The notes below the pieces were generated by a model that was given only the letters and a program-made list of their open reading frames with translations, was not told the origin of the DNA and ran no database searches. Shown here one piece after another: positions 3,613 to 20,707 of a stretch of 61,085 nucleotides of DNA (positions are counted from its first letter, which is position 1; every line of letters starts with the position of its first letter). The DNA comes from an uncultured Spartobacteria bacterium (GTDB lineage: Bacteria > Verrucomicrobiota > Verrucomicrobiia > Chthoniobacterales > Terrimicrobiaceae): assembly GCA_937919825.1 (NCBI GenBank), contig CALFPA010000124.1, positions 1 through 61,085 of the forward strand, read 5' to 3'. A program made the translations under genes and the position numbers.

Positions 3613-3664
3613 TTTTTTCGTCCGTCTTTTCTCTTGTCACTCCCCCGCCCCCATCGAATGCTGA

Positions 3665-4948
<1,284 letters not shown>

Positions 4949-4956
4949 GAAAACAC

Positions 4957-5661
4957 GTGAGCGCCGTTGTCCCCAAACATGTCGCCATTATTATGGACGG
5001 CAACGGCCGTTGGGCCCAGCAGCGCGGCCTCCCGCGCATCGCGGGCCACGAGGCGGGCTCAAAGTCCATCGAGCGCTGTGTCCAGGCCTGCCTCGACACC
5101 GGCGTTCAATACCTGACGCTCTACGCCTTTTCCTCGGAGAACTGGAAACGCCCGGCCTTGGAGGTCAACGCCCTCATGCTCCTGTTGGAAAATTTCCTCA
5201 ACCAAAAGCGCGATGAAATGGTCCGTGAGGGCATCCGCCTCCACCACATCGGCCGCATCCAGGAACTCCCCTCCGTCTGCCAGCGCAAGCTTCGCGAGGT
5301 GATGGAAGCCACCGCGTCGAACACCAAGCTCCACTTCGTCCTCGCCCTGAGCTACAGCGGCCGCGCCGAGATTGTTGATGCTGTGAAATCCCTCGTCTGC
5401 GACACCGCCGCAGGCACCGTGAGCGAAGCTGACATCACGCCCGAGTTGATCGCCTCGCGCCTGAACACTGCCGGGATGCCCGACCCCGACCTCCTCATCC
5501 GCACCTCCGGAGAGATGCGCATTTCGAATTTTCTCCTCTGGCAACTCAGCTACACGGAAATCCATGTGACAAAAAAATTCTGGCCCGATTTCCAGCGCGA
5601 GGACTTCCTCGCCGCGCTCGAGGACTACGCCGGTCGCTCCCGCCGCTTCGGCGGCGTCTGA
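4957..5661 (+). CDS. uppS: Isoprenyl transferase (undecaprenyl diphosphate synthase)
   Basis: Cis-prenyltransferase of 234 residues that makes the undecaprenyl-diphosphate lipid carrier for cell-wall synthesis. The catalytic MDGNGRWA motif lies at residues 13-20 (Asp14), followed by GHEAGSKS, YAFSSENWKRP, the GRAEIVDA segment and the C-terminal DLLIRTSGEMRISNFLLWQ signature. The start is GTG at 4957, 8 bp after the purA stop; this places the DGNGRWA motif at the usual distance from the N-terminus. It sits between purA and valS in one direction. Confidence 0.95.
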   Translation: MSAVVPKHVAIIMDGNGRWAQQRGLPRIAGHEAGSKSIERCVQACLDTGVQYLTLYAFSSENWKRPALEVNALMLLLENFLNQKRDEMVREGIRLHHIGRIQELPSVCQRKLREVMEATASNTKLHFVLALSYSGRAEIVDAVKSLVCDTAAGTVSEADITPELIASRLNTAGMPDPDLLIRTSGEMRISNFLLWQLSYTEIHVTKKFWPDFQREDFLAALEDYAGRSRRFGGV

Positions 5662-5719
5662 TCCCCTACCCGCACTTTCCGCTTTCTCGCCTTGGGCGAA
5701 CCCGATTGAATCCCGCGCC

Positions 5720-8296
5720 ATGTCTGAATTGTCCAAGGCCTACGAGCCCCAGTCCGTCGAAGAAAAATGGTATTCCCACTGGATCGAGCGCGGCCATTTC
5801 ACTGCCGACCCCGCCTCGCCGAAGCCCGCCTACTCGATCGTCATCCCGCCGCCGAATGTCACCGGCGTCCTCACGCTCGGCCATGTGCTCAACAACACAC
5901 TCCAGGACATCCTCGCCCGCCACGCCCGCCAAACCGGCCATGAAGTCCTTTGGCTCCCCGGCACCGACCACGCCGGCATTGCCACGCAGACCGTCGTCGA
6001 GCGCAAGCTCCGCAAGGAGGAAAAGAAAACCCGCCACGACCTCGGCCGCGACGAGTTCCTCAAGCGCGTCTGGGAGTGGAAGGACAAACACGGCGGCATC
6101 ATCATCAAACAGCTCAAAAAACTCGGCTGCTCCTGTGATTGGACCCGCGAACGCTTCACGATGGACGACGCCTACGCGCGCAAGGTGCAGGAGGTTTTCG
6201 TCGATCTCCACGCGAAGGGGATGATCTACCGCGGCAAGCGCATGGTGAATTGGTGCCCCGTCTCACTCACTGCGCTCAGCGACGAGGAAGTCATTCCGAA
6301 AACCCAGAAATCCTTTTTCTACCACTACCGCGTCGAGGTCGTGGAAAAACCCGGCACCTTCCTCGAGATCGCTACGACCCGCCCCGAAACGATCATGGCC
6401 GACACCGCCGTGGCCGTGAATCCCAAGGACCCCCGCTACGCCGCCCTCATCGGCCTCCATGTCCGCCGTCCCCTCCCCGCCAATGTCGAAGCCCTCCTCC
6501 CTATCATCGGCGACGAGGCGGTTGATTTCGAATTCGGCACCGGCGTCCTGAAAGTCACGCCCGCGCACGACAAGACCGACTATGACATCGGCCTCCGCCA
6601 CAACCTCCCCGTCATCGACATTTTCAACCCCGACGCGACCTTGAACGAACTGGCCGGGGAGGAATTCGCTGGTCTCGACCGGTTCGAAGCCCGCACCGAA
6701 GCCGTCGCCAAGCTCACGGAACTCGGCCTCCTCGTAAAAGAGGAACCCCACGAAAACAATGTCGGCTTCAGCGAACGCGCCGATGTGCCGATCGAACCCC
6801 GCCTCTCCGAGCAGTGGTTCCTCAAATACCCGAAAACCGCCGAGTCCCGCGACGCCGTCCGTAACCACCTCATCCGCTTCTTCCCCGACCGCTGGGAAAA
6901 GGTCTACGACCACTGGCTCGAAAACATCCAAGACTGGTGCATCTCCCGCCAGCTGTGGTGGGGCCACCGCATTCCGGTTTGGTATCGAAACGACGAAGTC
7001 CTCTGTCAGATCGAGTCCCCCGGCGAGGGCTGGGTGCAGGATTCCGATGTGCTCGACACCTGGTTCTCCTCGTGGCTCTGGGCCCACGAGACGATGGACG
7101 CCGCCGCACTCAAAAAATTCTTCCCGACCAGCGTGCTCGTCACCGGTCCCGACATCATCTTTTTCTGGGTCGCCCGCATGATCATGGCGAGCCTCGAATA
7201 CACCGGCCAAATTCCCTTTCGCGATGTGTATTTCACCGGAATCATCCGCGACAAACAGGGTCGCAAGATGTCGAAAAGCCTCGGCAACTCCCCCGACCCG
7301 CTCGATCTCATTGCAAAGTTCGGCGCGGACGGGATTCGCTTTGGCCTCCTGCGCATCGCACCGCAGGGGCAGGACATCAAATTCGACGAGCAGCAAATCG
7401 TCGAAGGCCGCAACTTCTGCAACAAGCTCTGGAACGCATGCCGCTTCCGGCAAATGCAGGGTTCGCTCGACCCACAAGCCGATCCCTCGAAACACGAACT
7501 CTCCCTCTTCGCCCAAGACCTCCTCGCCCGACTCGACGCGACCATCCGCCGCGTCAACGAAGGCTACGAGGCCTACAAATTCAGCGACATCGCCCAGGCA
7601 CTCTACGATTTCGTTTGGGGAGATTTCTGCGACCGCTTTATCGAAGTCGCCAAATCCGATTTCGCCGCCGACTCCCCCCGCCGCGCCGGAACGCTCGCGA
7701 CTCTTGACTACACGATTAAACGCATCCTTCAACTCCTCCACCCCTACGCGCCATTCATCACCGAGGAACTCTGGAGCGGCCTCGGCTTCGGCAGCGATAG
7801 CATCATGTTCAGCGGTTGGCCCGAACCCTCCGCCTTCGCTGCCGATCCACGCTCCGAAGCCGTCTTCGCGGCCGTCTCCACCAGCCGCAACCTCCGCGCG
7901 ACCTACGGCATCCAAGGCAATCGCCGCCTGCCGTGGCAACTCGCCCCCGCCGCCGATTGGGTAAAAGACGAACTCCCCGTTCTCACGAACCTTCTCTACG
8001 CCGAATCGATCACGATTTGCGAAAAAGCTCCCGTCGGCCACGCCGCCTGCCCGACCGATCTCGGCACGATCTACCTCCCGCTCGAAGGTATCATCGACGC
8101 CGCCACCGAAGCCAAACGCCTCGACGGCGAAATCCGAAAAGTCGAAGCCGAGAGCGAAAAAGTGGCCAAAAAGCTCTCGAGCGAAACGTTCGTCCAAAAC
8201 GCCCCCGCCGAAGTCGTCGCCGACCACCGCCAGCGCCAACAAGACTGGCTCTCGAAACTCGCAGAACTTCAAAAAGCCAGGGCGTCCCTTGGTTGA
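5720..8296 (+). CDS. valS: Valyl-tRNA synthetase
   Basis: Class I aminoacyl-tRNA synthetase, 858 residues. It charges tRNA-Val and has an editing domain. The signature after PPPNVTGV reads LTLGHV (residues 51-56), so the first His of HIGH is Thr, a variant known in part of the family. The CP1 editing domain follows (TTRPETIMADTAVAVNP; HDKTDYDIGLRH), then the KMSKS loop at residues 516-520 and an anticodon-binding domain, ending in a C-terminal coiled coil rich in Glu, Lys and Arg. Length and motifs are complete. Gap to uppS is 58 bp. Confidence 0.96.
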   Translation: MSELSKAYEPQSVEEKWYSHWIERGHFTADPASPKPAYSIVIPPPNVTGVLTLGHVLNNTLQDILARHARQTGHEVLWLPGTDHAGIATQTVVERKLRKEEKKTRHDLGRDEFLKRVWEWKDKHGGIIIKQLKKLGCSCDWTRERFTMDDAYARKVQEVFVDLHAKGMIYRGKRMVNWCPVSLTALSDEEVIPKTQKSFFYHYRVEVVEKPGTFLEIATTRPETIMADTAVAVNPKDPRYAALIGLHVRRPLPANVEALLPIIGDEAVDFEFGTGVLKVTPAHDKTDYDIGLRHNLPVIDIFNPDATLNELAGEEFAGLDRFEARTEAVAKLTELGLLVKEEPHENNVGFSERADVPIEPRLSEQWFLKYPKTAESRDAVRNHLIRFFPDRWEKVYDHWLENIQDWCISRQLWWGHRIPVWYRNDEVLCQIESPGEGWVQDSDVLDTWFSSWLWAHETMDAAALKKFFPTSVLVTGPDIIFFWVARMIMASLEYTGQIPFRDVYFTGIIRDKQGRKMSKSLGNSPDPLDLIAKFGADGIRFGLLRIAPQGQDIKFDEQQIVEGRNFCNKLWNACRFRQMQGSLDPQADPSKHELSLFAQDLLARLDATIRRVNEGYEAYKFSDIAQALYDFVWGDFCDRFIEVAKSDFAADSPRRAGTLATLDYTIKRILQLLHPYAPFITEELWSGLGFGSDSIMFSGWPEPSAFAADPRSEAVFAAVSTSRNLRATYGIQGNRRLPWQLAPAADWVKDELPVLTNLLYAESITICEKAPVGHAACPTDLGTIYLPLEGIIDAATEAKRLDGEIRKVEAESEKVAKKLSSETFVQNAPAEVVADHRQRQQDWLSKLAELQKARASLG

Positions 8297-8374
8297 TCCA
8301 GTGATTTCACTGACACAGGTTTTATGGATCCACTTTCTGCGAAACTTTTGCGCTCTTTCAGTGTTTGATATGGC

Positions 8375-8707
8375 ATGAAGAATGAGTTTCCCGAAAATGA
8401 CGGCCTGTGGAATTTGCTGGGACAGGCCAGCCAGCACCAAGCCTCGCCCTTCTTTTCGCGCAATGTGCTCCGATCCATCCGCCAGTCCGCTCAGGCTCCG
8501 TCGCCTTGGTTTATTCCACGCTGGCTTGCGCCGGCGGCCTTCGCGGCGCTCATCTTGGGTTTTGTTTTCGCTCTGAACCAATCCCCTTCCGGCCAAGCGG
8601 CATCTTACCTGCCAAGTGATCTCGCGAGCTACATCGATGAGGCCGCCGGTCTCTACCAAATCGTCCCACTCACTGAATTCACGCCCGCCCATTTGGCAGG
8701 GCTCTGA
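8375..8707 (+). CDS. Small single-span membrane protein of unknown function
   Basis: 110 residues. The N-terminal half is soluble (ENDGLWNLLGQASQHQ, SPFFSRNVLRSIRQ), followed by one transmembrane segment (about residues 50-66, LAPAAFAALILGFVFAL) and a short exported tail. This layout resembles membrane-anchored anti-sigma-like or hypothetical proteins often coded after ECF sigma genes, but no sigma gene is adjacent; valS lies 78 bp upstream. The zinc operon starts 147 bp downstream after two regulatory dyads, so it is unlikely to belong to that operon. No function is assigned. Confidence 0.6.
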   Translation: MKNEFPENDGLWNLLGQASQHQASPFFSRNVLRSIRQSAQAPSPWFIPRWLAPAAFAALILGFVFALNQSPSGQAASYLPSDLASYIDEAAGLYQIVPLTEFTPAHLAGL

Positions 8708-8795
8708 CCCCGCCTCCGTATTGGGGGAGAAAACCTGATTTCTTCTCGGGCCTACCCCTGCCCACCATCTTCTCAAAAGGCTACGCAGTTTTAAT

Positions 8796-8859
8796 TGCAA
8801 GTTTTTTGCATTTTTAATTGATCGAGGCCCATCGTCTCTATTAATGCAAATTATATGCA
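8796..8859 (+). promoter_or_regulatory. Two copies of a 15-bp dyad, probable zinc-responsive operator
   Basis: Two matching 15-bp sites, TGCAAGTTTTTTGCA (8796-8810) and TGCAAATTATATGCA (8845-8859), share the form TGCAA N5 WTGCA. They lie 34 bp apart, about 49 bp centre to centre, inside an A+T-rich block directly before the first gene of the zinc operon. The second site covers the only plausible start codon (ATG 8855-8857). Position and symmetry suggest binding by a Fur/Zur-type dimer that represses under zinc sufficiency; the sequence is not a standard Zur box, and the regulator itself is not in the window. Confidence 0.5.
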
Positions 8860-10123
8860 ATTAAGAGATGGCTCTCGAAACCCCGTCAAACCGGCATCCC
8901 CGCTTTTCAAAAAGCTTCCTGTCACCGTTCTCTCTGGCTTCCTCGGCGCCGGAAAAACCACGCTTCTCAACCATGTCCTCAACAACCGCGAAGGCCGCCG
9001 CGTGGCGGTCATCGTGAACGACATGAGCGAAGTCAACATCGACGCGGAACTCATCCGCGACGGGGGCGCTGAGCTCAGCCGGACGGAAGAAAAACTCGTC
9101 GAGATGACGAATGGCTGCATCTGCTGCACCCTGCGCGACGACCTGCTCAAGGAAGTATCGCGCCTCGCCGAGGAGGATCGGTTCGACTACTTGCTCATCG
9201 AGTCCACAGGCGTCTCCGAACCGCTCCCCGTCGCACAGACTTTCACTTTTGCCGATGAAGAAGGAAAGAGCCTCCAGGAAGTCACGCGCCTCGACACGAT
9301 GGTTACGGTCGTGGACGCCTCAAATTTCCTCGAGCACTACGAGGCCGGCGAATCACTGAAGGAGAAAAACGCCGCCCTCGGCGAAGAGGACGAACGCACC
9401 ATCTCCGACCTTTTTATCGATCAAGTGGAGTTCGCCGATGTCCTCCTCATTAACAAAACCGATCTCATCGACCAAGAGCAACTCGAGGAACTCCGCGCCA
9501 TCCTGCAACACCTCAACCCCGGCGCGGAAATCATCGAAAGCACCCGCGGCCGCGTAGATCTCGCCAGCATCCTCGACACCCGCCGCTTCGACATGGAAAA
9601 AGCCCAAGCCTCCGCAGGCTGGCTCCGCGAGTTGAACAACGAGCACACGCCCGAGACCGAGGAATACGGTATCGGCAGCTTCGTCTTCCGCGCCCGCCGC
9701 CCCTTCCACCCACAGCGCTTCTGGGATTTCATCCACACCGAGCGCCCGGGGCTTCTTCGCTCGAAAGGCTACTTCTGGCTCGCCAGCCGCAACACCATGA
9801 TCGGCCTCTGGTCCCAAGCCGGAGGCAGCGCCGAATACCGCCCCGCCGGCTTCTGGTGGGCCGCAGCGCCGAAATCCAGTTGGCCCGATGACGACGACAC
9901 CTGGCGCTCGATCATGAAAGATTGGCAGGAACCCCACGGCGACCGCCGCCAGATGCTCGTCTACATCTGCCAAGACCTCGAAAAGGAAAAACTCCTCGCC
10001 GAGTTGGAATCCTGCCTGCTCGACGACCGCGAACTCGCCATGGGCGAGGAGAAGTGGGCCAAGTTCCGCGATCCGTTTCCAGAGTGGGTTGTTCAGCCAA
10101 CAGACCACCAACACGAACATTGA
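8855..10123 (+). CDS. COG0523/CobW-family G3E GTPase (first of three), putative zinc chaperone
   Basis: 422 residues. Walker [11 protein letters not shown] is at residues 27-36, the metal-binding CXCC motif NGCICC at 86-91, the ESTG switch follows, and NKTD is the guanine-specificity motif. The C-terminal CobW domain carries FRARRPFHP and ends in a short HQHEH tail. COG0523 proteins are metallochaperones that deliver metal to client proteins. Placement at the head of a znuACB operon suggests zinc. It is similar in layout to the YciC/ZigA type induced by zinc starvation. The ATG at 8855 overlaps an operator-like dyad and no other usual start precedes the P-loop. Confidence 0.88.
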
Positions 10124-10133
10124 ACCAACGAAT

Positions 10134-11474
10134 ATGATGAACACAAATCGCACGCCAGTCACCGTCCTCACGGGATTCCTCGGAGCCGGAAAAACAACAC
10201 TTCTCAACCACATTCTCACCGCGAACCACGGCAAACGAATTGCCGTGATCGAAAACGAATTCGGTGAGATCGGCATCGACCACGAGCTCGTCATCGATGC
10301 CGAGGAGGAGATTTTCGAAATGAACAACGGCTGCATCTGCTGCACCGTGCGCGGGGACTTGATTCGTATCCTCGGCCGCCTTGGAAAGATGCGAGATAAG
10401 TTCGACCATATCCTCATCGAGACCACCGGCCTCGCCGATCCGGGACCTGTCGTTCAGACCTTCTTCGTCGATCCCGAAGTGGGTGAAAAATTCCATGTCA
10501 ACGCGGTGGTCACACTCGTGGATGCCAAGCACATCTGGCAGCACCTCGACGACTCCGACGAAGCCAAGGAGCAAGTCGCCTTTGCCGATGTCATCATCCT
10601 CAACAAAACCGACCTCGTTCCCACTGCGGACCTCGATCGCCTCGAGGCCCGCATCAAGGGAATGAACGGCGTCGCCCGTTTCCACCGCACCCGAAATGCG
10701 GTGATCGAGATCGACAAGGTCCTCGATGTCGGAGGCTTCAATCTCGAGAACGCCATGAGCATCGATCCCAAGTTTCTCGAGCCGGAATACCCGTTCGAAT
10801 GGGGTGGAATCTTCGAACTTCCCGCTGGCGAGGTCAGGCTGGAAGCGCATCAGCAGCCAGACCCCTCGATGAAAATCTGCTGGGTTCCTGTCGAAGCCGC
10901 CACCGAAGAGGCGATGGCCAAGGCGCGAGAGAGGGTCGTCCGCGCCTTCTCGGAAGAATCCCCCGAGGCCGCTCCAGGAGCCCGACTCGCCTGCGATGCA
11001 GCCTGTCGCGACCTGATCCTCGCCGGGGATTCTATGACCTGGCACCTCGTGGTTCCGAAAGTGGGATTCTACGCGGCCTTCACCGAGCATTACCCGGAGG
11101 AGCTCGATTTTCGCGTTTGCCCTAGCGACGCCGTCGAACCGCTTCTCGCCGTCGCCTACAAGCCCGACCATGAGCACGATGACACCGTGACCAGCGTGGG
11201 CATCGAGTCCGACCGGGCCTGCGATCCGCGCAAACTCAACGACTGGCTTTCCAAACTCCTCCGCGAGCAGGGCAATGACATCTTCCGAATGAAGGGCGTC
11301 ATTTCCCTCGAGGGGAATCCGAACCGCGTCATCTTCCAAGGTGTGCACATGCTATTCGACGCCGCCGATGGAGGCCCGTGGGGAGAGCGTCCGCGCAAAA
11401 ACAGCCTCGTCTTCATCGGCCGCAACCTCGACCGCGAATTCCTCACAAACGGCTTCCAGTCCTGTCTCGCTTGA
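10134..11474 (+). CDS. COG0523/CobW-family G3E GTPase (second of three), putative zinc chaperone
   Basis: 446 residues from ATG 10134 (a second ATG follows at once at 10137). Walker [11 protein letters not shown] is at residues 13-22, the metal motif NGCICC at 65-70, ETTGLADPGPV follows, and NKTD is present. The C-terminal half is longer than in the first copy and has two Cys-bearing regions (LACDAACRD) and an acidic-His stretch (DHEHDD), then a CobW C-terminal domain with FRMKGVISLEG. It is 10 bp after the first GTPase and 25 bp before znuA. Sequence differs enough from the first copy that this is not a recent tandem duplicate. The metal is inferred from context. Confidence 0.88.
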   Translation: MMNTNRTPVTVLTGFLGAGKTTLLNHILTANHGKRIAVIENEFGEIGIDHELVIDAEEEIFEMNNGCICCTVRGDLIRILGRLGKMRDKFDHILIETTGLADPGPVVQTFFVDPEVGEKFHVNAVVTLVDAKHIWQHLDDSDEAKEQVAFADVIILNKTDLVPTADLDRLEARIKGMNGVARFHRTRNAVIEIDKVLDVGGFNLENAMSIDPKFLEPEYPFEWGGIFELPAGEVRLEAHQQPDPSMKICWVPVEAATEEAMAKARERVVRAFSEESPEAAPGARLACDAACRDLILAGDSMTWHLVVPKVGFYAAFTEHYPEELDFRVCPSDAVEPLLAVAYKPDHEHDDTVTSVGIESDRACDPRKLNDWLSKLLREQGNDIFRMKGVISLEGNPNRVIFQGVHMLFDAADGGPWGERPRKNSLVFIGRNLDREFLTNGFQSCLA

Positions 11475-11499
11475 TGACCAACCCAAACGAACACACATC

Positions 11500-12435
11500 A
11501 TGAAAAAAAACATCACCTCCTCGCTCCTCGCCTTCGCCACACTCGCTGTGGCCATGGCCCAGTCACCGGCTCCCGAGGCCGAAAAGCTCAATATCGTCAC
11601 CAGCTTCCTGCCAGTCCAATCGCACACCCTCGCCATCGCCGGCGACCACGCGAATGTGAAGCAATTGCTGGCCAAGGACACCGGTCCGCATGATTTCCAA
11701 CTTACCCCGGCGGATGTCAAAAAACTCTCCGATGCCGACCTGCTTATTATCAACGGTGCGGGCATCGAAGAATGGCTGGGCGAACTGATCAAAAAGTCGG
11801 GAAACAAAAACCTCGTCGTCGTCGATACCTCGAACCGGATCAAACTCGTCGAAAGCGCCGAGGAGATTGAGATTGGGCACTCACACTCCCACGCGCATGA
11901 TCACGACCACGGCGACGGAGCAAATCCCCACATCTGGCTCGATCCTGTGATCGCAAAAAAACAAGCCGCCAACATCGTGGCCGCGCTTCAAAAAGCCGAT
12001 CCCCCCAACGCCTCCGCTTACGCTCAGAATGGCAGGGCCTATGAGGCCAAACTCTGGGCCCTCGACTCCGACTACCGCTCGACCCTGGCTCCGCTTCCGA
12101 ACAAGAACCTCGTAACCTTCCACGACGCCTTTCCGTATCTGGCTGCTCGCTACCAGCTGAACTATGTCGGCGCCATCTCGGAATTCCCCGAGAAGGATCC
12201 AACGCCGAAGCAACTCGCCGCCCTCATCGACAAAATCCGCAGCCTGAAAGTGGGTGTCCTTTTCGCGGAGAACGGATACGCCCCCGGACTCCTGAAAAAA
12301 ATTGCTAGCGAGACAGGGGCTAAGGTTTCCGAACTCGACACACTCGAGGTCGGACAAGGAACTCCCACCGCCTACCTTGACCGCATGGGCGCGAATCTCG
12401 AGTCCCTTCGCAGTGCCTTCGGCAAGGGTGATTGA
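11500..12435 (+). CDS. znuA: Zinc ABC transporter, substrate-binding protein
   Basis: 311-residue exported solute-binding protein of cluster 9. A signal peptide runs to about residue 20 (MKKNITSSLLAFATLAVAMA). The metal-ligand histidines are in GPHDFQLTP (His64) and NPHIWLDP (His144), with a third in TFHDAFPYLA and the C-terminal acidic ligand region after ELDTLEVGQ. Between the first two is a His-rich loop (residues 127-137, GHSHSHAHDHD), a mark of zinc rather than manganese binders. Start ATG 11500 is preceded by an A/C-rich leader. znuC begins at the last base of the stop codon. Confidence 0.92.
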   Translation: MKKNITSSLLAFATLAVAMAQSPAPEAEKLNIVTSFLPVQSHTLAIAGDHANVKQLLAKDTGPHDFQLTPADVKKLSDADLLIINGAGIEEWLGELIKKSGNKNLVVVDTSNRIKLVESAEEIEIGHSHSHAHDHDHGDGANPHIWLDPVIAKKQAANIVAALQKADPPNASAYAQNGRAYEAKLWALDSDYRSTLAPLPNKNLVTFHDAFPYLAARYQLNYVGAISEFPEKDPTPKQLAALIDKIRSLKVGVLFAENGYAPGLLKKIASETGAKVSELDTLEVGQGTPTAYLDRMGANLESLRSAFGKGD

Positions 12436-13220
12436 TGATTGCTCCCGCTGCTCAATCCTTTCCCGCTGCCATCGGCCGGAAGCCCCTCCTCCAAATCCAA
12501 GGGCTTGGAGTGCGCTACGGTTCCCATTGGGCCTTGCGTGATTTCGACCTCGATGTCCACCAAGGCGACATGGTTGGAATCATCGGCCCGAACGGCGGCG
12601 GCAAGTCCACCTTGTTCAAAGCGATTCTGGGGCTTGTTCCGCCAACCGCCGGACGCGTGCTCAAACCCTCCGGCGCACTTCGTATCGGCTATGTGCCGCA
12701 GCACCTCACTTACGACACCTCGTTTCCCATCACCGTGGGGGAATTTCTCACCGTCAACCACCCAGCGAGGTTTTTCTGGTGCGGCGGAGTAGGTCGAAAA
12801 CAAAAACGGGAAATCACCGACACGCTCGAGCGTCTGCATGTTGCAGACCTCCTCGGGCAGCGATTGGGAACCCTTTCCGGCGGGCAGTTTCAACGGATTC
12901 TGGTCGCCTCCGCTCTCCTTCAAAAGCCAGAGCTTCTCCTCTTGGACGAACCCTCCGCGAGCGTGGATCGACGTGGCAGCGACGACCTCAGCGATATCTT
13001 GGAGGAAATCCACCGCGCCACCTCGCTCTCGGTGGTCTTTGTCTCACACGATCTTCACTTTGTAAGCCACCTCGCCAAGAAGGTGTGCTGCCTCAACCAA
13101 ACCTGCTGCGCCGCGGGTGACCCCGAAACCGTTCTCACCGACCACTTGCTTGCCCAAACCTACGGCACCACCGGGCACACTTGGCGGGGCTTTCAACCCT
13201 CAGATCCTCTTTCCCGATGA
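12435..13220 (+). CDS. znuC: Zinc ABC transporter, ATP-binding protein
   Basis: 261-residue ATPase that drives zinc import with ZnuB. Walker A GPNGGGKST is at residues 51-59, the signature LSGGQFQR and Walker B LLLLDEPSAS follow, and the switch His is in FVSHDLHFVSH. The C-terminal segment has several Cys (KKVCCLNQTCCAAGD), as in many ZnuC proteins. The start codon ATG at 12435 shares its A with the znuA stop (TGATG), and its 3' end overlaps znuB by ATGA, so translation of A, C and B is coupled. Confidence 0.93.
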   Translation: MIAPAAQSFPAAIGRKPLLQIQGLGVRYGSHWALRDFDLDVHQGDMVGIIGPNGGGKSTLFKAILGLVPPTAGRVLKPSGALRIGYVPQHLTYDTSFPITVGEFLTVNHPARFFWCGGVGRKQKREITDTLERLHVADLLGQRLGTLSGGQFQRILVASALLQKPELLLLDEPSASVDRRGSDDLSDILEEIHRATSLSVVFVSHDLHFVSHLAKKVCCLNQTCCAAGDPETVLTDHLLAQTYGTTGHTWRGFQPSDPLSR

Positions 13221-14074
13221 ACCTCTCCGAGATTTGGTCCTACGAATTCATCCGCTACGCGCTCATCTCCGCTTGTATCCTCGGGCCGACCTGTGCCCTT
13301 CTCGGCGTCTTTGTCACGCTGCGAGGAATGGCGTTTTTCAGCGACTCCCTCGCGCACTCGGCCGTGACCGGTGTGGCGCTGGGCTTTCTCTTGGAGGAAA
13401 AAACCGGCCTCGCGATCGATCCCATGTTGATAGTATTGGCATTCAGTATCGGACTCGCCTCGCTCATGGCGTGGCTTTTTCATCGCACCACCCTTCGGCC
13501 GGACACAGTCATCGCCTTTTCGTTTACCGGCAGTGTGGCATTCGGCGTCATCATTATCGCCTGGCTTCAAAAATACCGGCTCCTCGACGGCATTCTTTTT
13601 GGAAGCATCTACGCCAACGGTCCGGGGGATATCCTCCGCCAAGCCATTCTGGCTTTAGTTGTCGGCGGATTTCTCCTCCTGCAAATGCGTCCGCTCACCC
13701 TCTCGACACTCAACCCAGAACTCGCGCAGACCCGTGGCATCCGCACCGGTTGGCTGAACTACGCCTTTGCGATCCTCATAGCGGCAACGGTCGTCGTTTC
13801 GCTTCGAATGCTCGGAGCACTTCTCCTGAGTGCCTTGATTGTGATTCCACCGGCGGCCGCCAAGCTTGTGAGCAACAGCTTTGCCTCGCTCCTGCTGGTC
13901 TCCGCCGTCATCGGACTCGCCGCCCCATTTCTCGGCGTTGTGGCCTCCTGCCAACTCGATCTTCCCACCGGTCCGACCATTGTTCTGGCGAATGTGGGTG
14001 TGCTGATTTTGTGTTATGCTGCGAGTCTGTTTCTTGGAAATCGCGCCCTGCATCGAGGGGGGCGCCCCCAATGA
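13217..14074 (+). CDS. znuB: Zinc ABC transporter, permease
   Basis: 285-residue inner-membrane permease of the ABC-3 family with eight or so hydrophobic segments. The family pattern LRGMAFFSDSLAHSAVTGVALG near residues 35-56 and the late IVIPPAAAKLVSNS segment are clear. Start ATG at 13217 overlaps the znuC stop (ATGA). The end overlaps the next gene in the same way. The reading frame upstream of 13217 is not part of the protein. Confidence 0.92.
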   Translation: MNLSEIWSYEFIRYALISACILGPTCALLGVFVTLRGMAFFSDSLAHSAVTGVALGFLLEEKTGLAIDPMLIVLAFSIGLASLMAWLFHRTTLRPDTVIAFSFTGSVAFGVIIIAWLQKYRLLDGILFGSIYANGPGDILRQAILALVVGGFLLLQMRPLTLSTLNPELAQTRGIRTGWLNYAFAILIAATVVVSLRMLGALLLSALIVIPPAAAKLVSNSFASLLLVSAVIGLAAPFLGVVASCQLDLPTGPTIVLANVGVLILCYAASLFLGNRALHRGGRPQ

Positions 14075-14673
14075 TTTCCGAATGCCCCTCCCAACCCGCC
14101 TCCCGGCGGCGGAGCCTCGTGGGGGATCTGTGCAAGGGCGTCACCCAATCCATGGGATTCTGGGGCTGTGATGCCCGCCATCCGGCTGGGAACCTCCTTG
14201 TGGCTTCGGGGTTCGAACGATTAGAGAAAAACCCCGCCCTCACTGAAGGCAGCAGTCGCTACCGCAAACCATGGCGCAATGGCTGCATCGAACTGCACAG
14301 CTTTTGTGCGGGATGGTATCCAGCCAAGGGAAATGGCGTTGTTTTCATCCGCCACCGCGAACGCCTTTTTTCCTGCACGGCCGGCGATCCTCCCCGACCT
14401 GGCAAATACAACGATCGTCTTGCCGGGGGAACGAATGACGACCTTATCCACCTCGCCGCACCCTTTGTGGAATGGATGCTTGCCCACGAGAACTGGATTT
14501 CCTCCCGATGCGGACCGTGCTACCGAAGCGCCTGCTGGCACCATGTGCAGACCTTGCCAGGCACCCGTCCATGGCTCGCGCCGCAGGAAGGCGTGTCATG
14601 GCTCGAATCCTTTCTTCTCCACCCAAACCGCACCCCGCGCGCCCACGAGTGGGCATTGAGGAGCTTCCGATGA
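14071..14673 (+). CDS. Unknown Cys-rich protein inside the zinc operon
   Basis: 200 residues, not recognised. It starts at an ATG overlapping the znuB stop and ends in an ATGA overlap with the next gene, so it belongs to the operon. It is soluble, with no signal peptide. Eleven cysteines are present, including a cluster SRCGPCYRSACWHH (about residues 149-162) that could bind zinc, and conserved-looking segments MGFWGCDARHP, IELHSFCAGWYP and GVVFIRHRERLFSC. A role in zinc handling is inferred only from position. Confidence 0.75.
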   Translation: MISECPSQPASRRRSLVGDLCKGVTQSMGFWGCDARHPAGNLLVASGFERLEKNPALTEGSSRYRKPWRNGCIELHSFCAGWYPAKGNGVVFIRHRERLFSCTAGDPPRPGKYNDRLAGGTNDDLIHLAAPFVEWMLAHENWISSRCGPCYRSACWHHVQTLPGTRPWLAPQEGVSWLESFLLHPNRTPRAHEWALRSFR

Positions 14674-14984
14674 TTTCCTGTCCCGCATGTGGATTCGATG
14701 AAAGCCGCCTCGCAAAGAGCCTCCGACTTGGGTGTTCCACCTGCTACACAACCTTTGCTCCTCACATCGCCACCTTCCTGCCACGCCTCCATCGGGGAGT
14801 CATCCACACCGGCAAAAAACCGCCCGCCCTCACGGTTGCCGAGCTTGAACGCCGCATCGACCGGCTCGTGGCAAAAGTTCAAGAGCTCGCGCCGGGGTCG
14901 CCGGAAGCAACGGGGCTTTGCCAACTCCAATCGTCATGCCATGCCGCCTTTGATCAAATCCAAAGACACAACTACCCTTCCTAA
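14670..14984 (+). CDS. McsA-like zinc-ribbon/UVR-type small protein
   Basis: 104 residues. The first part matches the C-terminal half of McsA: CPACG (residues 4-8), RLGCSTCYTTF (about 19-29), then HRGVIHTGKKPP. A helical C-terminal part with the look of a UVR motif follows. McsA normally activates the arginine kinase McsB in a ctsR-mcsAB-clpC setting; here it has only one of the usual two ribbon regions and no kinase neighbour. It overlaps the preceding gene by ATGA and is 36 bp before the third GTPase. Zinc sensing, storage or acting as a client are possible roles. Confidence 0.75.
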   Translation: MISCPACGFDESRLAKSLRLGCSTCYTTFAPHIATFLPRLHRGVIHTGKKPPALTVAELERRIDRLVAKVQELAPGSPEATGLCQLQSSCHAAFDQIQRHNYPS

Positions 14985-15020
14985 ACTCGTTTTTTACCAA
15001 ACAACCAAAAACCTCTTCCT

Positions 15021-15974
15021 ATGACACCGCTCATCGTCATCGTCGGCTTCCTCGGAGCCGGGAAAACCACCTTCCTCCAAAAGCTCGTTCCTGCCCTCGG
15101 AGCCGAGGGACTCAGCCCGTCGCTTCTGATCAATGACTACCAAAACGCCCGAATCGACGCCGAGCGGTTCCGTGGAGTCATTGACGAAGTTACCACGCTG
15201 AATGGTGATTGTGTCTGCTGCGGGTCGCGCGACGAACTCCTCGCGGCGCTGGAGCAATTCAAGCACCGATCCGGTCGCGTGCTTCTCCTCGAGACCAACG
15301 GCACCACGGACTCCGAGCAACTCCTCGAGACCCTCGCCTTCAACAAAGACCTCAAACGCTTCACCCCGCCGATTCAGCTCTCGATCATCGATGGTCAACG
15401 CTGGCAGCGCCGCTTCTGGCACAACGCCCTCGAGCGCGACCAAGTCCACACCGCGACCCATCTTTTCATCTCGCGCACCGACATCATCGCGCCGGAACGC
15501 CTCGCATCTGTGAAAAAATCCCTCGCCGAACTCGGCATCCACGCCTCTGTGAACGACCCGGCCTCCTTCGCCCGAGAAATCGCCTCGCTCCCCGAGTTGC
15601 ACGATTCAGCCCATAACCACGAAACAAAACCCCATCACCACGCCGAGGAACACCACCACGGAGAGGGTCACCATCACCACCATACGCAACACCACTTCGC
15701 CTCTTGTGAAATTCCTCTCCCGGCATTTGTGAAAAAGCGGGCCTTCGAGGAATTCCTGAATTCCCTCCCCGAAGAAGTCCTGCGCGCCAAGGGCCTCGTC
15801 GTCCTCCGCGAAGAGCCCGGCGAATTCCAGATCTTCCAAAAAGTCGGGCACGATGGCGCGGTGCAATTTTTCCCCATCGGCCAGCACCCCACCCTACGCG
15901 ACCCCGTGGCCCTCTTCATCGGCCCGCATCTTCCCGTCGAATCCCTCCGAGAAAAGATCTCCGCCCTTTCCTGA
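15021..15974 (+). CDS. COG0523/CobW-family G3E GTPase (third), short and His-rich
   Basis: 317 residues, the shortest of the three. Walker [11 protein letters not shown] is at residues 8-17 and the metal motif reads NGDCVCCGS (Cys64, 66, 67), a variant of GCICC. The switch is ETNGTTD, and the guanine motif is SRTD rather than NKTD, which may alter nucleotide specificity. Residues 194-225 hold 16 histidines in a linker before the C-terminal CobW domain (FEEFLNSLPEEVLRAKGLV). It closes the operon after the McsA-like gene. A zinc-buffering or delivery role is inferred. Confidence 0.87.
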   Translation: MTPLIVIVGFLGAGKTTFLQKLVPALGAEGLSPSLLINDYQNARIDAERFRGVIDEVTTLNGDCVCCGSRDELLAALEQFKHRSGRVLLLETNGTTDSEQLLETLAFNKDLKRFTPPIQLSIIDGQRWQRRFWHNALERDQVHTATHLFISRTDIIAPERLASVKKSLAELGIHASVNDPASFAREIASLPELHDSAHNHETKPHHHAEEHHHGEGHHHHHTQHHFASCEIPLPAFVKKRAFEEFLNSLPEEVLRAKGLVVLREEPGEFQIFQKVGHDGAVQFFPIGQHPTLRDPVALFIGPHLPVESLREKISALS

Positions 15975-16015
15975 TCGGCCTCGATATTTTCAAGGCCTGC
16001 GGGAGCAGAGTGGTT

Positions 16016-17230
16016 TTACTTCAGCAACATCTTCCAAGCCGAGGACTCCAAAGCCGCTCGCAGGCTCGATAGATTTTTTTTGGAGACGAATTTCAGCTCG
16101 GGGGGAGTTTTTCCCCCGACGAGGAAGTGATTCAGCGCCGTTAGAAAAAGAGGGGCTTGCTCGTCGGGAGGGAGCTCGATGTCATCGGGAAATTCCGCAT
16201 TGAGAATCCAAGTGCCCGACTCCGAGCAATGGGTCAGCTCCACAGCCCAATGGAAAATATTTTCCAATGGATTTCCCGAGTAGCGCCGCGCGACCATGGC
16301 CAAGACGGCTTCGCGACTTTCGAGATTGAGAAGGAGAGCGAGGAGAAACCGATGGTCGGGATCTTCGATGCTCCCCCGCATAGCCACCAGAGCATCGCGG
16401 CGGATGATTTCCAAAAGGGAGGGAAGCACCGGCTCAGCCAAGGCGCCGTGTTTTTTGGAAAAAGCCGCCCACGCCTGATCCCAAGCGCCAAGATTCCGAA
16501 GATGGCCCATGGCATTTTGGAGAGTGAAAAATCCCCGCTCGAAATCGAGTGTCCCGATCATTTTCAGAATCAGGCTGGCATACTCCGGTGACGCGGTGTG
16601 CTCGAGCACATCGAGGAGTTGCTTTCGCCTAAGAGTCAGGAAATCCCCTTGAACCGGATCGATCGCCAGATGCGGCGGGAGGTAGGTGAACTGCGGTCCC
16701 GTTCCAGGATCGGATTGGGTGCGAATCACAATCGTCACCGAGGGAGTTTCCAGATGGAAGAGGGAGTGGATGCACGAGCGACCGGAAACGATCGGCACGG
16801 TGTCGCCCCGCTCCAGAAGCTGGGTTTCTTGGAGCTTCAAGTCCCCCACGCGGAAGTGCGCGGTGATGGATTCGGCATTCTCGAAAACATAGCGCGATTG
16901 AATGCTCGAGCCCTCGAGAACTTGGAAGGCCCCGGAGAATTCGTGCTGGTGAATGTCGGTGGTTCCATCGAGCCAGAAGAGGGCCTGAATATAAAACTTC
17001 GGGTTGTCGTAAACGATGAGTTCGGGCTGTCCAAATCCGGAGGACGATTGATGCGGCTGCTCGTCGTGAAGCAGAAAATCACGGGTTAATTTCTCCAGAT
17101 CGACATGCCGAGAGGCTGGCTTGGTTTGAAGCGCCTTGACGGCGATCTCAGGAAAAGCCGCCAAGGAAAAATTCGCCTTCTTCCAACGAGTGTAAACCGA
17201 GTTTCCCAGCTCCGCGAAATAGGCATCCAT
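16016..17230 (-). CDS. Cupin-like protein of unknown function
   Basis: 404 residues from ATG 17230; a GTG at 17275 would add 15 residues and abut the upstream gene. The N-terminal half has a cupin-type pattern: HQHEFSGAFQVLEG (about residues 96-109) with two metal-type histidines, and GRSCIHSLFHLETPSVT further on. This resembles metal-dependent dioxygenase cupins, but substrate is unknown. The C-terminal half is helical, Leu/Ala-rich, without recognisable domain. It is leftward and convergent with the zinc operon, and follows the Hsp20-like gene closely, so the two may be cotranscribed. Confidence 0.55.
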   Translation of the reverse strand: MDAYFAELGNSVYTRWKKANFSLAAFPEIAVKALQTKPASRHVDLEKLTRDFLLHDEQPHQSSSGFGQPELIVYDNPKFYIQALFWLDGTTDIHQHEFSGAFQVLEGSSIQSRYVFENAESITAHFRVGDLKLQETQLLERGDTVPIVSGRSCIHSLFHLETPSVTIVIRTQSDPGTGPQFTYLPPHLAIDPVQGDFLTLRRKQLLDVLEHTASPEYASLILKMIGTLDFERGFFTLQNAMGHLRNLGAWDQAWAAFSKKHGALAEPVLPSLLEIIRRDALVAMRGSIEDPDHRFLLALLLNLESREAVLAMVARRYSGNPLENIFHWAVELTHCSESGTWILNAEFPDDIELPPDEQAPLFLTALNHFLVGGKTPPELKFVSKKNLSSLRAALESSAWKMLLK

Positions 17231-17276
17231 CCGCCAACTCTTTCGCACACCCGCCGGAGGAACAAGAAGAACCACC

Positions 17277-18077
17277 CTACGATTTCGGGAGCGTCACTTC
17301 GAGGCGGCCATTTTTGTATTCCATCTTCATCTGGTCCACCCGCACCGGTCCGGGAAGCGTGAGGGATTGGGTGGAACTCGAGGCACTGAATGCGGCGAGG
17401 CCACCCGCGCCGGCTTTCTGGTCCTGCTTGGTGGTGATCGTAACGAAACGGTCGTTATCCACATTCACGCTCACATTTTTTGCCTGCGCCTCCGGAATGG
17501 CGGCGCTGAGGATGTAGCGGTCGGCTTCATCCCGGAGTTCAAATCCTCCCGCCGCACCACCAATAACCCCGGCGAGGCCCGATTGGTTCAAGAGCGATTG
17601 GAGCATGTCGATGCCGCTGCCGCCGGAGGAGGATTTCGCCATTTGGTTGAACTGCCCCATCATCGCCGCCGCCTGCTTGAGCATGTCGCCGCGCATCGCA
17701 TCGAAATCATCGAGCCCCTGAAACGCGTCGCGGAATGGATCGGGCGCCGACGCCGTGGAGGGCGCGGGGCCACCCTTGGGAATCGTGATCACCAATTCAC
17801 CGCTATCGCGCTGGATGCCCAGCGGCGCGTCGGGAACGGCAGCTGGGAGTTGCAGGCTCTGATCGTATCGGGGCTCCTTCTCGCCGCCGCTCGTTTCCAG
17901 CAAAAGCCGCCGACCCGCGAGGCGGACATTCACCGTAGTTTTCTCGGGAACTCCGAGCCGAACTGTGTAGGCAGAGTCGGTTTCGGTGAGGTTCATCGAG
18001 GAACTTAACACAGGGACGGCCTGAAGCGTCCAAGCGGACAGACCAAGACAGACAAGGAAGGCATGGGATTTTTTCAT
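17277..18077 (-). CDS. Exported protein with two alpha-crystallin (Hsp20-like) domains
   Basis: 266 residues with a signal peptide (MKKSHAFLVCLGLSAWTLQAVP). A first beta-rich domain (about residues 28-100) ends with SGELVITIPK, and a second (about 178-266) has the Hsp20 order: FELRDEADRYILSAAIPEAQ, VSVNVDNDRFVTI, SLTLPGPV and GRLEVTLPKS. Between them is a low-complexity Ala/Met/Gly/Ser linker. Small heat-shock proteins are usually cytoplasmic with one domain; this one is exported and doubled, which suggests an envelope holdase. The chaperone role is inferred from fold. Confidence 0.75.
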   Translation of the reverse strand: MKKSHAFLVCLGLSAWTLQAVPVLSSSMNLTETDSAYTVRLGVPEKTTVNVRLAGRRLLLETSGGEKEPRYDQSLQLPAAVPDAPLGIQRDSGELVITIPKGGPAPSTASAPDPFRDAFQGLDDFDAMRGDMLKQAAAMMGQFNQMAKSSSGGSGIDMLQSLLNQSGLAGVIGGAAGGFELRDEADRYILSAAIPEAQAKNVSVNVDNDRFVTITTKQDQKAGAGGLAAFSASSSTQSLTLPGPVRVDQMKMEYKNGRLEVTLPKS

Positions 18078-18110
18078 GGCGTTAAAATGACAAAGCCGCT
18101 GGGCAGTTGT

Positions 18111-18446
18111 TCAATTTCTTTTGAAGGCAATCATCAGCCAGCCGATCAGGAACAACACCCCGCCGATGGGTGTAATCGCCCCGAGCCAGCGCAGGTTTGT
18201 CACCGCGAGCAGGTAGAGAGTCCCTGAGAAAATCGCCACCCCGGCGGTCCAAACCCAAACGACGACAGGCCGTTTTTCTGCGGCCCAAAGGGCGGCGACC
18301 GCATGGACGAGGTGGTAGAGGACGGCTGTCTGCCAGATGGCTGTGGTGCCGTAGGTTTCGAGGAGGTTTTTCAGGCTGTGGGCCCCAAAGGCCCCGAGGC
18401 TCACCCCCAAAAAACCCAAAATGGCAGCGACGCGGATGGTAGTCAT
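18111..18446 (-). CDS. DUF423 family small membrane protein
   Basis: 111 residues, four transmembrane segments. The family pattern LGVSLGAFGAHSLK near the N-terminus and YHLVHAVAAL, FSGTLYLLAV and TPIGGVLFLIGW are clear. Function of DUF423 (YgdD-like) is not known. The start ATG (CAT at 18444-18446) shares three bases with the first likely start of the divergent cstA-like gene. It is 33 bp upstream of the Hsp20-like gene, same direction. Confidence 0.85.
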   Translation of the reverse strand: MTTIRVAAILGFLGVSLGAFGAHSLKNLLETYGTTAIWQTAVLYHLVHAVAALWAAEKRPVVVWVWTAGVAIFSGTLYLLAVTNLRWLGAITPIGGVLFLIGWLMIAFKRN

Positions 18447-20337
18447 GGAGCCATGCTTGCACAGGAATCCTGACCGCGACAACATTCCGCTCGTGGGTCC
18501 GATCCTTCTCACCATTTTGGCCAGCTCGTTCCTGTGCTACTGGCTTGCGGAACGCTTCTACGGTTCGTTTTTGGAGCGCGCCCTTGGCGTGGAGCCGAAA
18601 AACCAAACCCCCGCCGTCTCGCGAAACGACGGCCGCGATTTCGTCCCAGCCAAGCCCTATGTGCTCTTCGCTCACCACTTCGCGGCAATCGCCGGCGCGG
18701 GGCCAATCGTGGGGCCCACCCTGGCGTTGGTTTACGGCTACCTACCGGCGCTGATCTGGGTGGTCATTGGCGCGACACTCCTCGGCGGGGTTCATGACAT
18801 GGTCACGCTTTTCATTTCTTCGCGGGAAGAAGGCCGCTCGGTGGCCGATATCGCCAGGACTTATCTTGGCCCGACAGGCTATATTTTAATCGTCAGTTTT
18901 TTGGTGATCGGGCTCCTGATGATCACCGCGACCTTTCTGAACCTCAGCGTCACCGCCCTGACCAGCATGTATCCCGCCGGGAAGGTCGGCATCGAGCCAG
19001 CCACGACAGAACAACTCGCCGCCGCACTCCATACTCCCACCGATGCGCTCGGCATGCATCCGTTTCATCACGGCGACGGCCTGCCGACTGTAGTGAAGGT
19101 GGAGAATGGCCAGCCCGTCCTCATCGCGAAGATCGGCGGCATCGCCTCGACCAGCGTGCTGTTCATCACACTCTGCGCCCCGATTTTGGGGTGGATGATC
19201 TACAGGCGCCGCACTCCGGCATGGCTCAACTACTCGATGGCCGCCGCCCTGTGCGCAGGCTCAGTCTGGCTTGGCATGATCCATCCGGTTGTCGTTTCAG
19301 CCGACACCTGGCGCATCATGATGACGGCTTATGTGGTCCTTGCCTCCGCGATTCCCGTATGGCTGCTCCTCATGCCAAGGGATTTTGTAAATGTTCAAAT
19401 CCTCTACGCGGGCATGATCGCCGTTGTCGCGGGACTCGTCGCGGCAGGATTCAGCGGCCGGTTTCCAGAAATCCCGCTCGCCCCCCAAAATGCTGCCGAG
19501 ATGATTCCGGCATGGGACCCGCAGACGGGACTCCAATATATCGGGATGCTCTGGCCGATGCTTTTCATCACGGTCTCCTGCGGAGCGATCAGCGGCTTTC
19601 ACTGCCTCGTTTCCAGCGGAACAACCGCGCGTCAACTTTCCTGCGAAAGCCATGCGCGCAAGGTCGGCTACCGCTCGATGCTTCTCGAGTCGATGCTTGC
19701 CGTCTCGATCATCCTCACGCTGCTCGTCGGAATGGATTGGGAAAACTACCGACTCATCACCTACGGCGAAAAAAATCCCATCCTCGCCGTCTCTCTCGCC
19801 ACCGGCACGCTCGTCCACACGGCCTTCGGCCTCCCGCTCTGGGCCGGAACGATTCTCGGCATCCTGCTTCTGGAGGGCTTCGTCGTCACCACGCTGGATG
19901 TCGCCGTTCGATTGAACCGCTACCTCCTCGAGGAAATCTGGAAATTTCTTTTTAAAAACCCGCACCCGATTCTCTCCAGCGCCTGGTTCAACACCTCGCT
20001 TTGCGTGGGCCTCATGTATCTCATCTCGCGCTCCAATTCCCTCCCGATGCTGTGGCAGGTCTTCGGCTCCGCGAACCAGATGATGGGCGCCATCGCGCTC
20101 TTGGTCGCCTCCGTGTGGCTCCGCGACCACGGGCGCCGCTGGGCTTTTACCCTCATCCCGGCCATCCTGATGTTCGCCACCACGCTCGCTTCGACCTCGA
20201 TCTCGCTCTGGAAAAACACCCAGCTCGGCAACTGGCCCCTCGTCGCCACTTGCGGGGTCTTGATCCTTCTCGGCATCGGCCTCGCCGCGATCGGAACCCG
20301 CATTTTCCTCGCCCCGCGACGGACCGCCCCGATTTGA
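18445..20337 (+). CDS. cstA: Carbon starvation protein CstA family transporter
   Basis: 630 residues from ATG 18445, a polytopic inner-membrane protein with about 16-18 hydrophobic segments. The CstA pattern is clear: FVPAKPYVLFAHHFAAIAGAG, GPTLALVYGYLP, GGVHDMVTLFIS and, late, FGSANQMMGAIALL. CstA/BtsT proteins take up pyruvate or peptides when carbon is scarce. The start is open to doubt because 18445 overlaps the divergent DUF423 start codon; TTG 18457 and GTG 18493 are alternatives that still precede the first membrane segment. Confidence 0.9.
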   Translation: MEPCLHRNPDRDNIPLVGPILLTILASSFLCYWLAERFYGSFLERALGVEPKNQTPAVSRNDGRDFVPAKPYVLFAHHFAAIAGAGPIVGPTLALVYGYLPALIWVVIGATLLGGVHDMVTLFISSREEGRSVADIARTYLGPTGYILIVSFLVIGLLMITATFLNLSVTALTSMYPAGKVGIEPATTEQLAAALHTPTDALGMHPFHHGDGLPTVVKVENGQPVLIAKIGGIASTSVLFITLCAPILGWMIYRRRTPAWLNYSMAAALCAGSVWLGMIHPVVVSADTWRIMMTAYVVLASAIPVWLLLMPRDFVNVQILYAGMIAVVAGLVAAGFSGRFPEIPLAPQNAAEMIPAWDPQTGLQYIGMLWPMLFITVSCGAISGFHCLVSSGTTARQLSCESHARKVGYRSMLLESMLAVSIILTLLVGMDWENYRLITYGEKNPILAVSLATGTLVHTAFGLPLWAGTILGILLLEGFVVTTLDVAVRLNRYLLEEIWKFLFKNPHPILSSAWFNTSLCVGLMYLISRSNSLPMLWQVFGSANQMMGAIALLVASVWLRDHGRRWAFTLIPAILMFATTLASTSISLWKNTQLGNWPLVATCGVLILLGIGLAAIGTRIFLAPRRTAPI

Positions 20338-20344
20338 TCCCGAC

Positions 20345-20707
20345 CTACTCGCCGCGATAGGAACACCGCGCGAACGGTGTCTCGTGAATCACAATCTCCG
20401 CGAGGCCGGGAAGCTGCGGCTCCAATTTTTTCCAAAGCCAATCCGCCATCAACTCAATCGTCGGATTTTCCAGACCCGGCATATCGTTGAGAACCGAATG
20501 GTCGAGTTGTTGGATGATCGGCTTCATCGCCGCGCTGATCCGCGCGTGGTCGTAAATCCAACCCGTCTCTGGATCGACCGCCCCCTCGACCGTGATTTCA
20601 ATCTTGAAAGTGTGACCATGCATGAGGCGGCACTTGTGCCCCTCCGGCGCCTTCGGCAAAAACTGCGCGGCTTCGAGAACAAAATCTTTGGTAAGGCGGG
20701 CCTTCAT
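20345..20707 (-). CDS. queD: 6-carboxytetrahydropterin synthase (QueD/PTPS family)
   Basis: 120 residues, normal length. Second step of queuosine/7-deazaguanine synthesis, making 6-carboxy-tetrahydropterin from dihydroneopterin triphosphate. Seen: PEGHKC with the catalytic Cys26, the zinc histidines in MHGHTF (His30, His32), and the end motif HETPFARCSYRGE. Where E. coli QueD has the first zinc His (AAH), this protein has Gln (AAQF), a variant I believe is common in the family. Convergent with cstA, 7 bp apart. Confidence 0.9.
   Translation of the reverse strand: MKARLTKDFVLEAAQFLPKAPEGHKCRLMHGHTFKIEITVEGAVDPETGWIYDHARISAAMKPIIQQLDHSVLNDMPGLENPTIELMADWLWKKLEPQLPGLAEIVIHETPFARCSYRGE

Follow-up and report, generated by a model that had tools for sequence, protein, structure and literature searches.

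A zinc operon lies on a 61,085-nt stretch of DNA (the window, meaning the whole stretch analyzed) from an uncultured Spartobacteria bacterium of the phylum Verrucomicrobiota. One of its genes encodes a protein of 200 amino acids, here called P0001, which founds a family that is listed in no collection searched. The features of the locus are as follows.

8793–8813, no strand: predicted Zur-type operator, box 1 (pattern match; identical in the sister genome)
8842–8862, no strand: predicted Zur-type operator, box 2, which overlaps the listed start of ZigA (pattern match; identical in the sister genome)
8855–10123, plus strand: ZigA-type COG0523 GTPase (NF038288, 655 bits, above the 600-bit cut-off)
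10089–11474, plus strand: second COG0523 GTPase, YjiA-like (Pfam cobW, 1.9e-61)
10126–15019, plus strand: 4.9-kb cassette of YjiA, ZnuABC, the P0001 gene, and the McsA-like gene (BLASTN collinearity on both flanks)
11503–12435, plus strand: ZnuA-type zinc-binding protein (Pfam ZnuA, 1.3e-78; longer ORF 11341–12435)
12432–13220, plus strand: ZnuC-type ATPase (Pfam ABC_tran; NCBIfam ZnuC, 9e-52, below the cut-off)
13217–14074, plus strand: ZnuB-type permease (Pfam ABC-3, 1e-55, scanned as 13181–14074)
14071–14673, plus strand: P0001, 200 aa (no internal stop; homologues)
14670–14984, plus strand: small McsA-like protein containing two CxxC pairs (NF053706, 8.5e-11)
15021–15974, plus strand: third COG0523 GTPase, carrying a His-rich loop (Pfam cobW, 4.6e-25)

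The operon order is ZigA, YjiA-like GTPase, ZnuA, ZnuC, ZnuB, P0001, McsA-like protein, and third COG0523 GTPase. Position 10089 is the mechanical ORF start of the YjiA-like gene, and the real start probably lies some codons further on. The P0001 gene is genuine: its frame is free of stops, homologues occur in 32 genomes, and selection on it is purifying (dN 0.29 and dS 1.7 against the nearest homologue, L010). The sequence-only reading had placed the gene in an operon on account of ATGA overlaps at both ends, and both were found, one joining its start to the ZnuB stop (14071–14074) and the other its stop to the next start (14670–14673); the gene does belong to the zinc operon. A 518-aa GTG frame with the same stop (13117–14673) was rejected as an open-frame artifact because most homologues begin near 14071. 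For the downstream gene, described as McsA-like, the NF053706 match is partial and below the cut-off. A piece related to this 104-aa McsA-like protein (53% over 47 aa) lies behind ZigA in another genome (G035, L105). On the minus strand, an ORF at 20345–20707 of the window resembles a QueD/PTPS enzyme, a type known from Zur regulons.

The claim that P0001 belongs to no known family was borne out by Pfam, NCBIfam, PHROG, and PDB-sequence searches, all without a match; against Pfam, no family, including the cobW domain, was hit at E ≤ 1. Isolated weak matches to glutathione S-transferase (0.17–0.24) and the sigma-54 CBD (0.34) were at chance level and were set aside. A plasmid search gave no match, the viral contigs searched contained no relative, and no paper naming the family was found in a literature search. 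Relatives were present in 8 of the 97 near genomes, 13 of the 387 phylum genomes, and 25 of the 384 class genomes, each count including the genome of origin, and the carriers add up to 32 distinct genomes. The family is thus patchily distributed within one phylum, with carriers that include Verrucomicrobia bacterium REEB449, Spartobacteria bacterium ZE-3nov15-113, and an entry labeled Akkermansia muciniphila MoH-23oct19-253; four divergent members (L038–L041, E = 1e-17 to 8e-4) come from outside the class. Two frameshifted genes were also seen, namely the family gene of G071 (L017 8018–8570) and ZigA of G269 (L032 7672–8840), each lying in two frames through either assembly fault or true decay. 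The assemblies are fragmentary, so that a missing or frameshifted gene may reflect a fault of assembly.

To our knowledge, the Zur box of the phylum Verrucomicrobiota has not been established, and our literature search found no Zur regulon study for it. A palindrome, TAAYGCAA-N5-TTGCRTTA, recurred at the family loci. In the 463 kb covering the 32 loci (whole window included), it occurred 6, 6, and 8 times at 0, 1, and 2 mismatches, respectively, i.e., 20 sites with two mismatches or fewer compared with a mean of 0.05 in 20 order-2 shuffles, and a box with three mismatches or fewer lay at most 300 bp upstream at 9 of the 32 loci compared with 87 of 6272 control windows, although these enrichment figures are not independent because the pattern was derived from the same loci. 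Alternative spacers of 0 to 11 gave no site at 0 or 1 mismatch and at most one at 2, which makes the spacer of 5 unique; a spacer-3 version scarcely exceeded its control and was abandoned in favor of spacer 5. With three mismatches allowed, a site was found at 22 of the 32 loci. At 21 loci it lay no more than 7.5 kb from the family gene; the remaining 11 of the 32 had none within that distance.

Within the 2.71-Mb genome of origin, WATKCAANNNNNTTGMATW with one mismatch allowed matched a single site, at window position 8794. The form AWTGCAANNNNNWTGCAWT had two zero-mismatch sites, at 8794 and 8843, both before ZigA, and a single one-mismatch site, on contig C25 in no recognized zinc setting; two-mismatch sites were many, among them a tandem pair on contig C41. 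Between this genome and the sister genome G003, none of the 60 columns of the two boxes had changed, whereas 8 of the 107 neighboring columns differed. Three Fur-family genes in the genome, on C88, C3, and C108, are candidate repressors. From the boxes and the operon context, we consider it highly probable that the P0001 gene belongs to a Zur-type zinc-deficiency regulon. The tandem operator-like boxes on C41 (15859–15908; L085 1502–1569) precede a gene whose product has HGPGHFH in its N-terminal part and shares 49% identity with an outer-membrane-like protein from the L013 zinc island (OMP match weak). This gene is a candidate for a zinc-regulated outer-membrane protein, and the boxes together with the L013 likeness hint, in part independently, at a shared regulon. 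PMC10957091 reports that zepA occurs in the PVC superphylum and that, in Luteolibacter, a palindrome lies upstream of this gene; that palindrome may be the same as the box reported here.

To compare the genomic neighborhoods, we took the distance between the family match and the closest COG0523 BLASTX match in each locus stretch. A COG0523 gene was present at 24 of the 32 loci, within 400 bp at 21, and on the same strand and downstream at 16, the own window being counted among these 16 even though the McsA-like gene intervenes. The question of whether homologues stand beside znuB or COG0523 genes was thus answered in favor of the latter, as znuB was rarely adjacent. Eight loci had no COG0523 gene in the stretch (L011, L033, L035, L037, L039, L069, L072, and L074), of which L011, L039, and L072 are contigs of just 5 to 6 kb. 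ORF clustering across the 32 loci yielded neighbors of choice-of-anchor-M type (13), prepilin type (11), MerC type (7), and ZnuA type (6); NF038134 scored above its cut-off in all five choice-of-anchor-M-type proteins tested, and the identity of the single MerC-type protein tested was confirmed. Altogether, 30 of the 32 loci had a COG0523, choice-of-anchor-M, MerC, or Znu-type neighbor, the remaining two (L037 and L069) being devoid of zinc genes altogether and also having no prepilin-type neighbor. The subtype of the neighboring GTPase varied among loci. A ZigA match (E ≤ 1e-80) was found in 17 of the 25 family-positive class genomes versus 44 of the 359 family-negative ones (Fisher p = 1.3e-9, uncorrected for kinship), and 44 of the 61 class genomes with a ZigA match were without the family. 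The clustering with zinc genes supports the assignment of the family to the zinc response. It does not prove contact with the GTPase, because membership in the same regulon alone would also yield clustering with COG0523 genes.

The choice-of-anchor-M genes that recur in these zinc islands (L014 6312–7010, L032 6341–7066, L039 1737–2807, L011 2896–3645, and L013 7957–8649), often with a prepilin-like gene near, perhaps encode surface partners of zinc uptake. At L069 (7057–8642; G587), the family gene lies right behind secY-map at a ribosomal operon end with no zinc gene near. On account of this arrangement, a link to methionine aminopeptidase (Peptidase_M24) was considered; it was dropped as it held for 1 of the 32 loci, a map-like gene at L076 (by clustering) lying 6 kb off.

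Four known systems can be compared with this one. DUF1826 (PF08856) is named among Zur-regulated COG0523 clusters in the Fig. 4 legend of PMC2770081, and, like the P0001 family, it is about 200 aa long and uncharacterized. In G035, the order is DUF1826, ZigA, McsA-like, HisI-like (by eye), and COG0523, so that DUF1826 stands directly upstream of ZigA, in the slot that the P0001 family takes in other genomes; the P0001 family also resembles DUF1826 in standing beside COG0523 genes, at a distance of 400 bp or less at 21 of 32 loci. Homology was rejected, with 0 of 15 members matching PF08856 at E ≤ 1 and an hhalign probability of 0.2%. We read these few cases as one slot filled by different proteins. 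DUF1826 is infrequent (3 of 58 genomes of relatives and 4 of 384 class genomes), and both families co-occur in G013, where the DUF1826 gene comes after the P0001-family gene. The ZigA/YciC-type COG0523 GTPases share operons and predicted regulon with the P0001 family and are its commonest direct neighbors, but the cobW domain is theirs and absent from P0001, which makes them candidate partners and P0001 no member. Similarly, a McsA-like gene comes next after the P0001 gene, whereas P0001 itself matched no McsA or zinc-ribbon model in Pfam or NCBIfam. The ZepA zinc system is reported in PMC10957091 to have COG0523 and Fur-family neighbors and to occur in the PVC superphylum, but ZepA is exported with a PEP-CTERM, whereas P0001 has no signal sequence by eye. 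The latter suggests a cytosolic location.

A role for P0001 as a partner or adaptor of a COG0523 GTPase is put forward tentatively, at somewhat less than an even chance. Conservation was counted over the 30 full-length members, L016 and L017 being excluded as incomplete or split. Seven residues were invariant (G32, D34, L43, G60, E140, R152, and W177), and others were nearly so (Y64 and G47 in 29 of 30; N41, S62, and R94 in 28 of 30). Two AlphaFold2 models, one of P0001 and one of the L011 protein (pLDDT 82 and 80; pTM 0.82 and 0.79), were built from four sequences and agreed on a long N-terminal helix, a six-strand meander, and a helical C-terminal part, with just two or three of the five models confident within each prediction. 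A fold search of PDB and viral libraries gave no significant match, and Foldseek none at E ≤ 0.001. The best Z scores of the two models were 4.0 and 5.9 (TipC2, rmsd 4.0, 119 aligned), all below 8; polo boxes, p32/Mam33, the DnaK substrate domain, and TipC2 came up at Z of about 3 to 6, and we do not count them as relatives.

The strongest rival to a GTPase partner is a protein of the zinc-deficiency response that works as an enzyme or binds a small ligand, for example as a zinc-free stand-in for some zinc-dependent activity, and that would leave the GTPase untouched. The residues D34, N41, S62, Y64, R94, E140, R152, and W177, largely polar or aromatic, would suit an active site, and Zur regulons commonly hold zinc-free enzyme paralogues according to PMC6103462, but neither the sequence nor the fold searches linked P0001 to an enzyme family or a solved structure, and we hold this alternative to be rather unlikely.

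A protein that itself binds zinc through cysteines and histidines, as a store, chaperone, or sensor, appears improbable. The Cys/His cluster noted earlier, SRCGPCYRSACWHH, is indeed present in P0001, which has nine cysteines in all, and the gene stands in a zinc operon, both of which favor such a role. However, the cluster is already lost in the nearest homologue at 62% identity, where it reads ERHGPAYRAACWRH, and no position is always Cys or always His among the 30 full-length members, so that the cluster did not hold up as a metal site. The same applies to the cysteines said to look conserved: C147 and C150 are rare in the family, C33 is kept in 6 of 30 members, and C155 in 18, and only C79, which lies outside the cluster, is fairly well kept (22 of 30). 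Homologues thus share no conserved cysteine as far as the cluster is concerned, which is not fully true of C79. H37 is kept in 19 of 30 and H76 in 16; the counts of C79 and H76 would allow H37/E74/H76/C79 to act as a single site in some members, yet H76 is replaced by Tyr in 10 members and Trp in 4, and C79 is missing in 8. Because its nearest homologue has ERHGPAYRAACWRH and the cluster cysteines are poorly kept, the visible SRCGPCYRSACWHH cluster is a peculiarity of P0001, and the working site of the family probably lies elsewhere. Since the cluster is not conserved, P0001 probably assists the zinc system without binding zinc through cysteines.

The cassette at 10126–15019 is missing as a single block from the sister genome G003 (L108), where ZigA is directly followed by the third COG0523 gene and the flanks are about 92 to 95% identical to window positions 3436–10125 (in pieces) and 15020–20536. 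The two genomes, one with and one without this zinc uptake cassette, form a natural pair for comparison. In G593, which belongs to another family, the ZnuA–ZnuC stretch is 87% identical to the window and ZigA 76%, and ZnuB is 93% identical in amino acids. Behind this ZnuB, an overlapping remnant of the family gene ends after about 39 matching residues (L113 1605–1765), and a HisI-like gene (by eye) comes next; G593 also keeps an intact family member before ZigA. The block absence in G003, the identities in G593, and its pair of remnant and intact copies suggest that the cassette has moved between lineages and that one family copy suffices. That the P0001 gene is an unrelated hitch-hiker on this mobile cassette is very unlikely: its presence in 25 of the 384 class genomes, its gain or loss together with the cassette, and the decayed copy in G593 would fit, but it recurs next to COG0523 genes in many non-cassette arrangements, is under purifying selection, and persists as an intact copy upstream of ZigA where the copy behind ZnuB has decayed.

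On the GTPase-partner reading, zinc shortage would make a Fur-family repressor leave the TGCAA-N5-TTGCA boxes, and the operon of ZigA, YjiA, ZnuABC, the P0001 gene, the McsA-like gene, and COG0523, whose gene order and boxes were observed, would then be expressed. P0001 would work together with a COG0523 GTPase; the likeliest role is that of an adaptor or partner, binding either the GTPase or its client. The proposed contact would involve the conserved polar residues D34, N41, S62, Y64, R94, E140, and R152, with no zinc held by Cys or His. Taken as a whole, the proposal that P0001 serves a Zur-type zinc-deficiency regulon as an accessory protein in the cytosol and acts with a COG0523 GTPase has, in our estimate, nearly an even chance of being right. 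The further-reaching idea that these proteins form a family, new to science, of adaptors (or clients) dedicated to the bacterial zinc GTPases of COG0523, with a conserved non-metal site, in the place of DUF1826, and under a TAAYGCAA-N5-TTGCRTTA zinc operator new for Verrucomicrobiota, is more doubtful.

As far as we know, little is understood of the way in which COG0523 GTPases select their clients. The P0001 family offers a concrete candidate partner, tied to COG0523 genes in one phylum and combining sharply invariant residues with no conserved Cys/His ligands, and the box offers a route to listing zinc-deficiency genes across Verrucomicrobiota.
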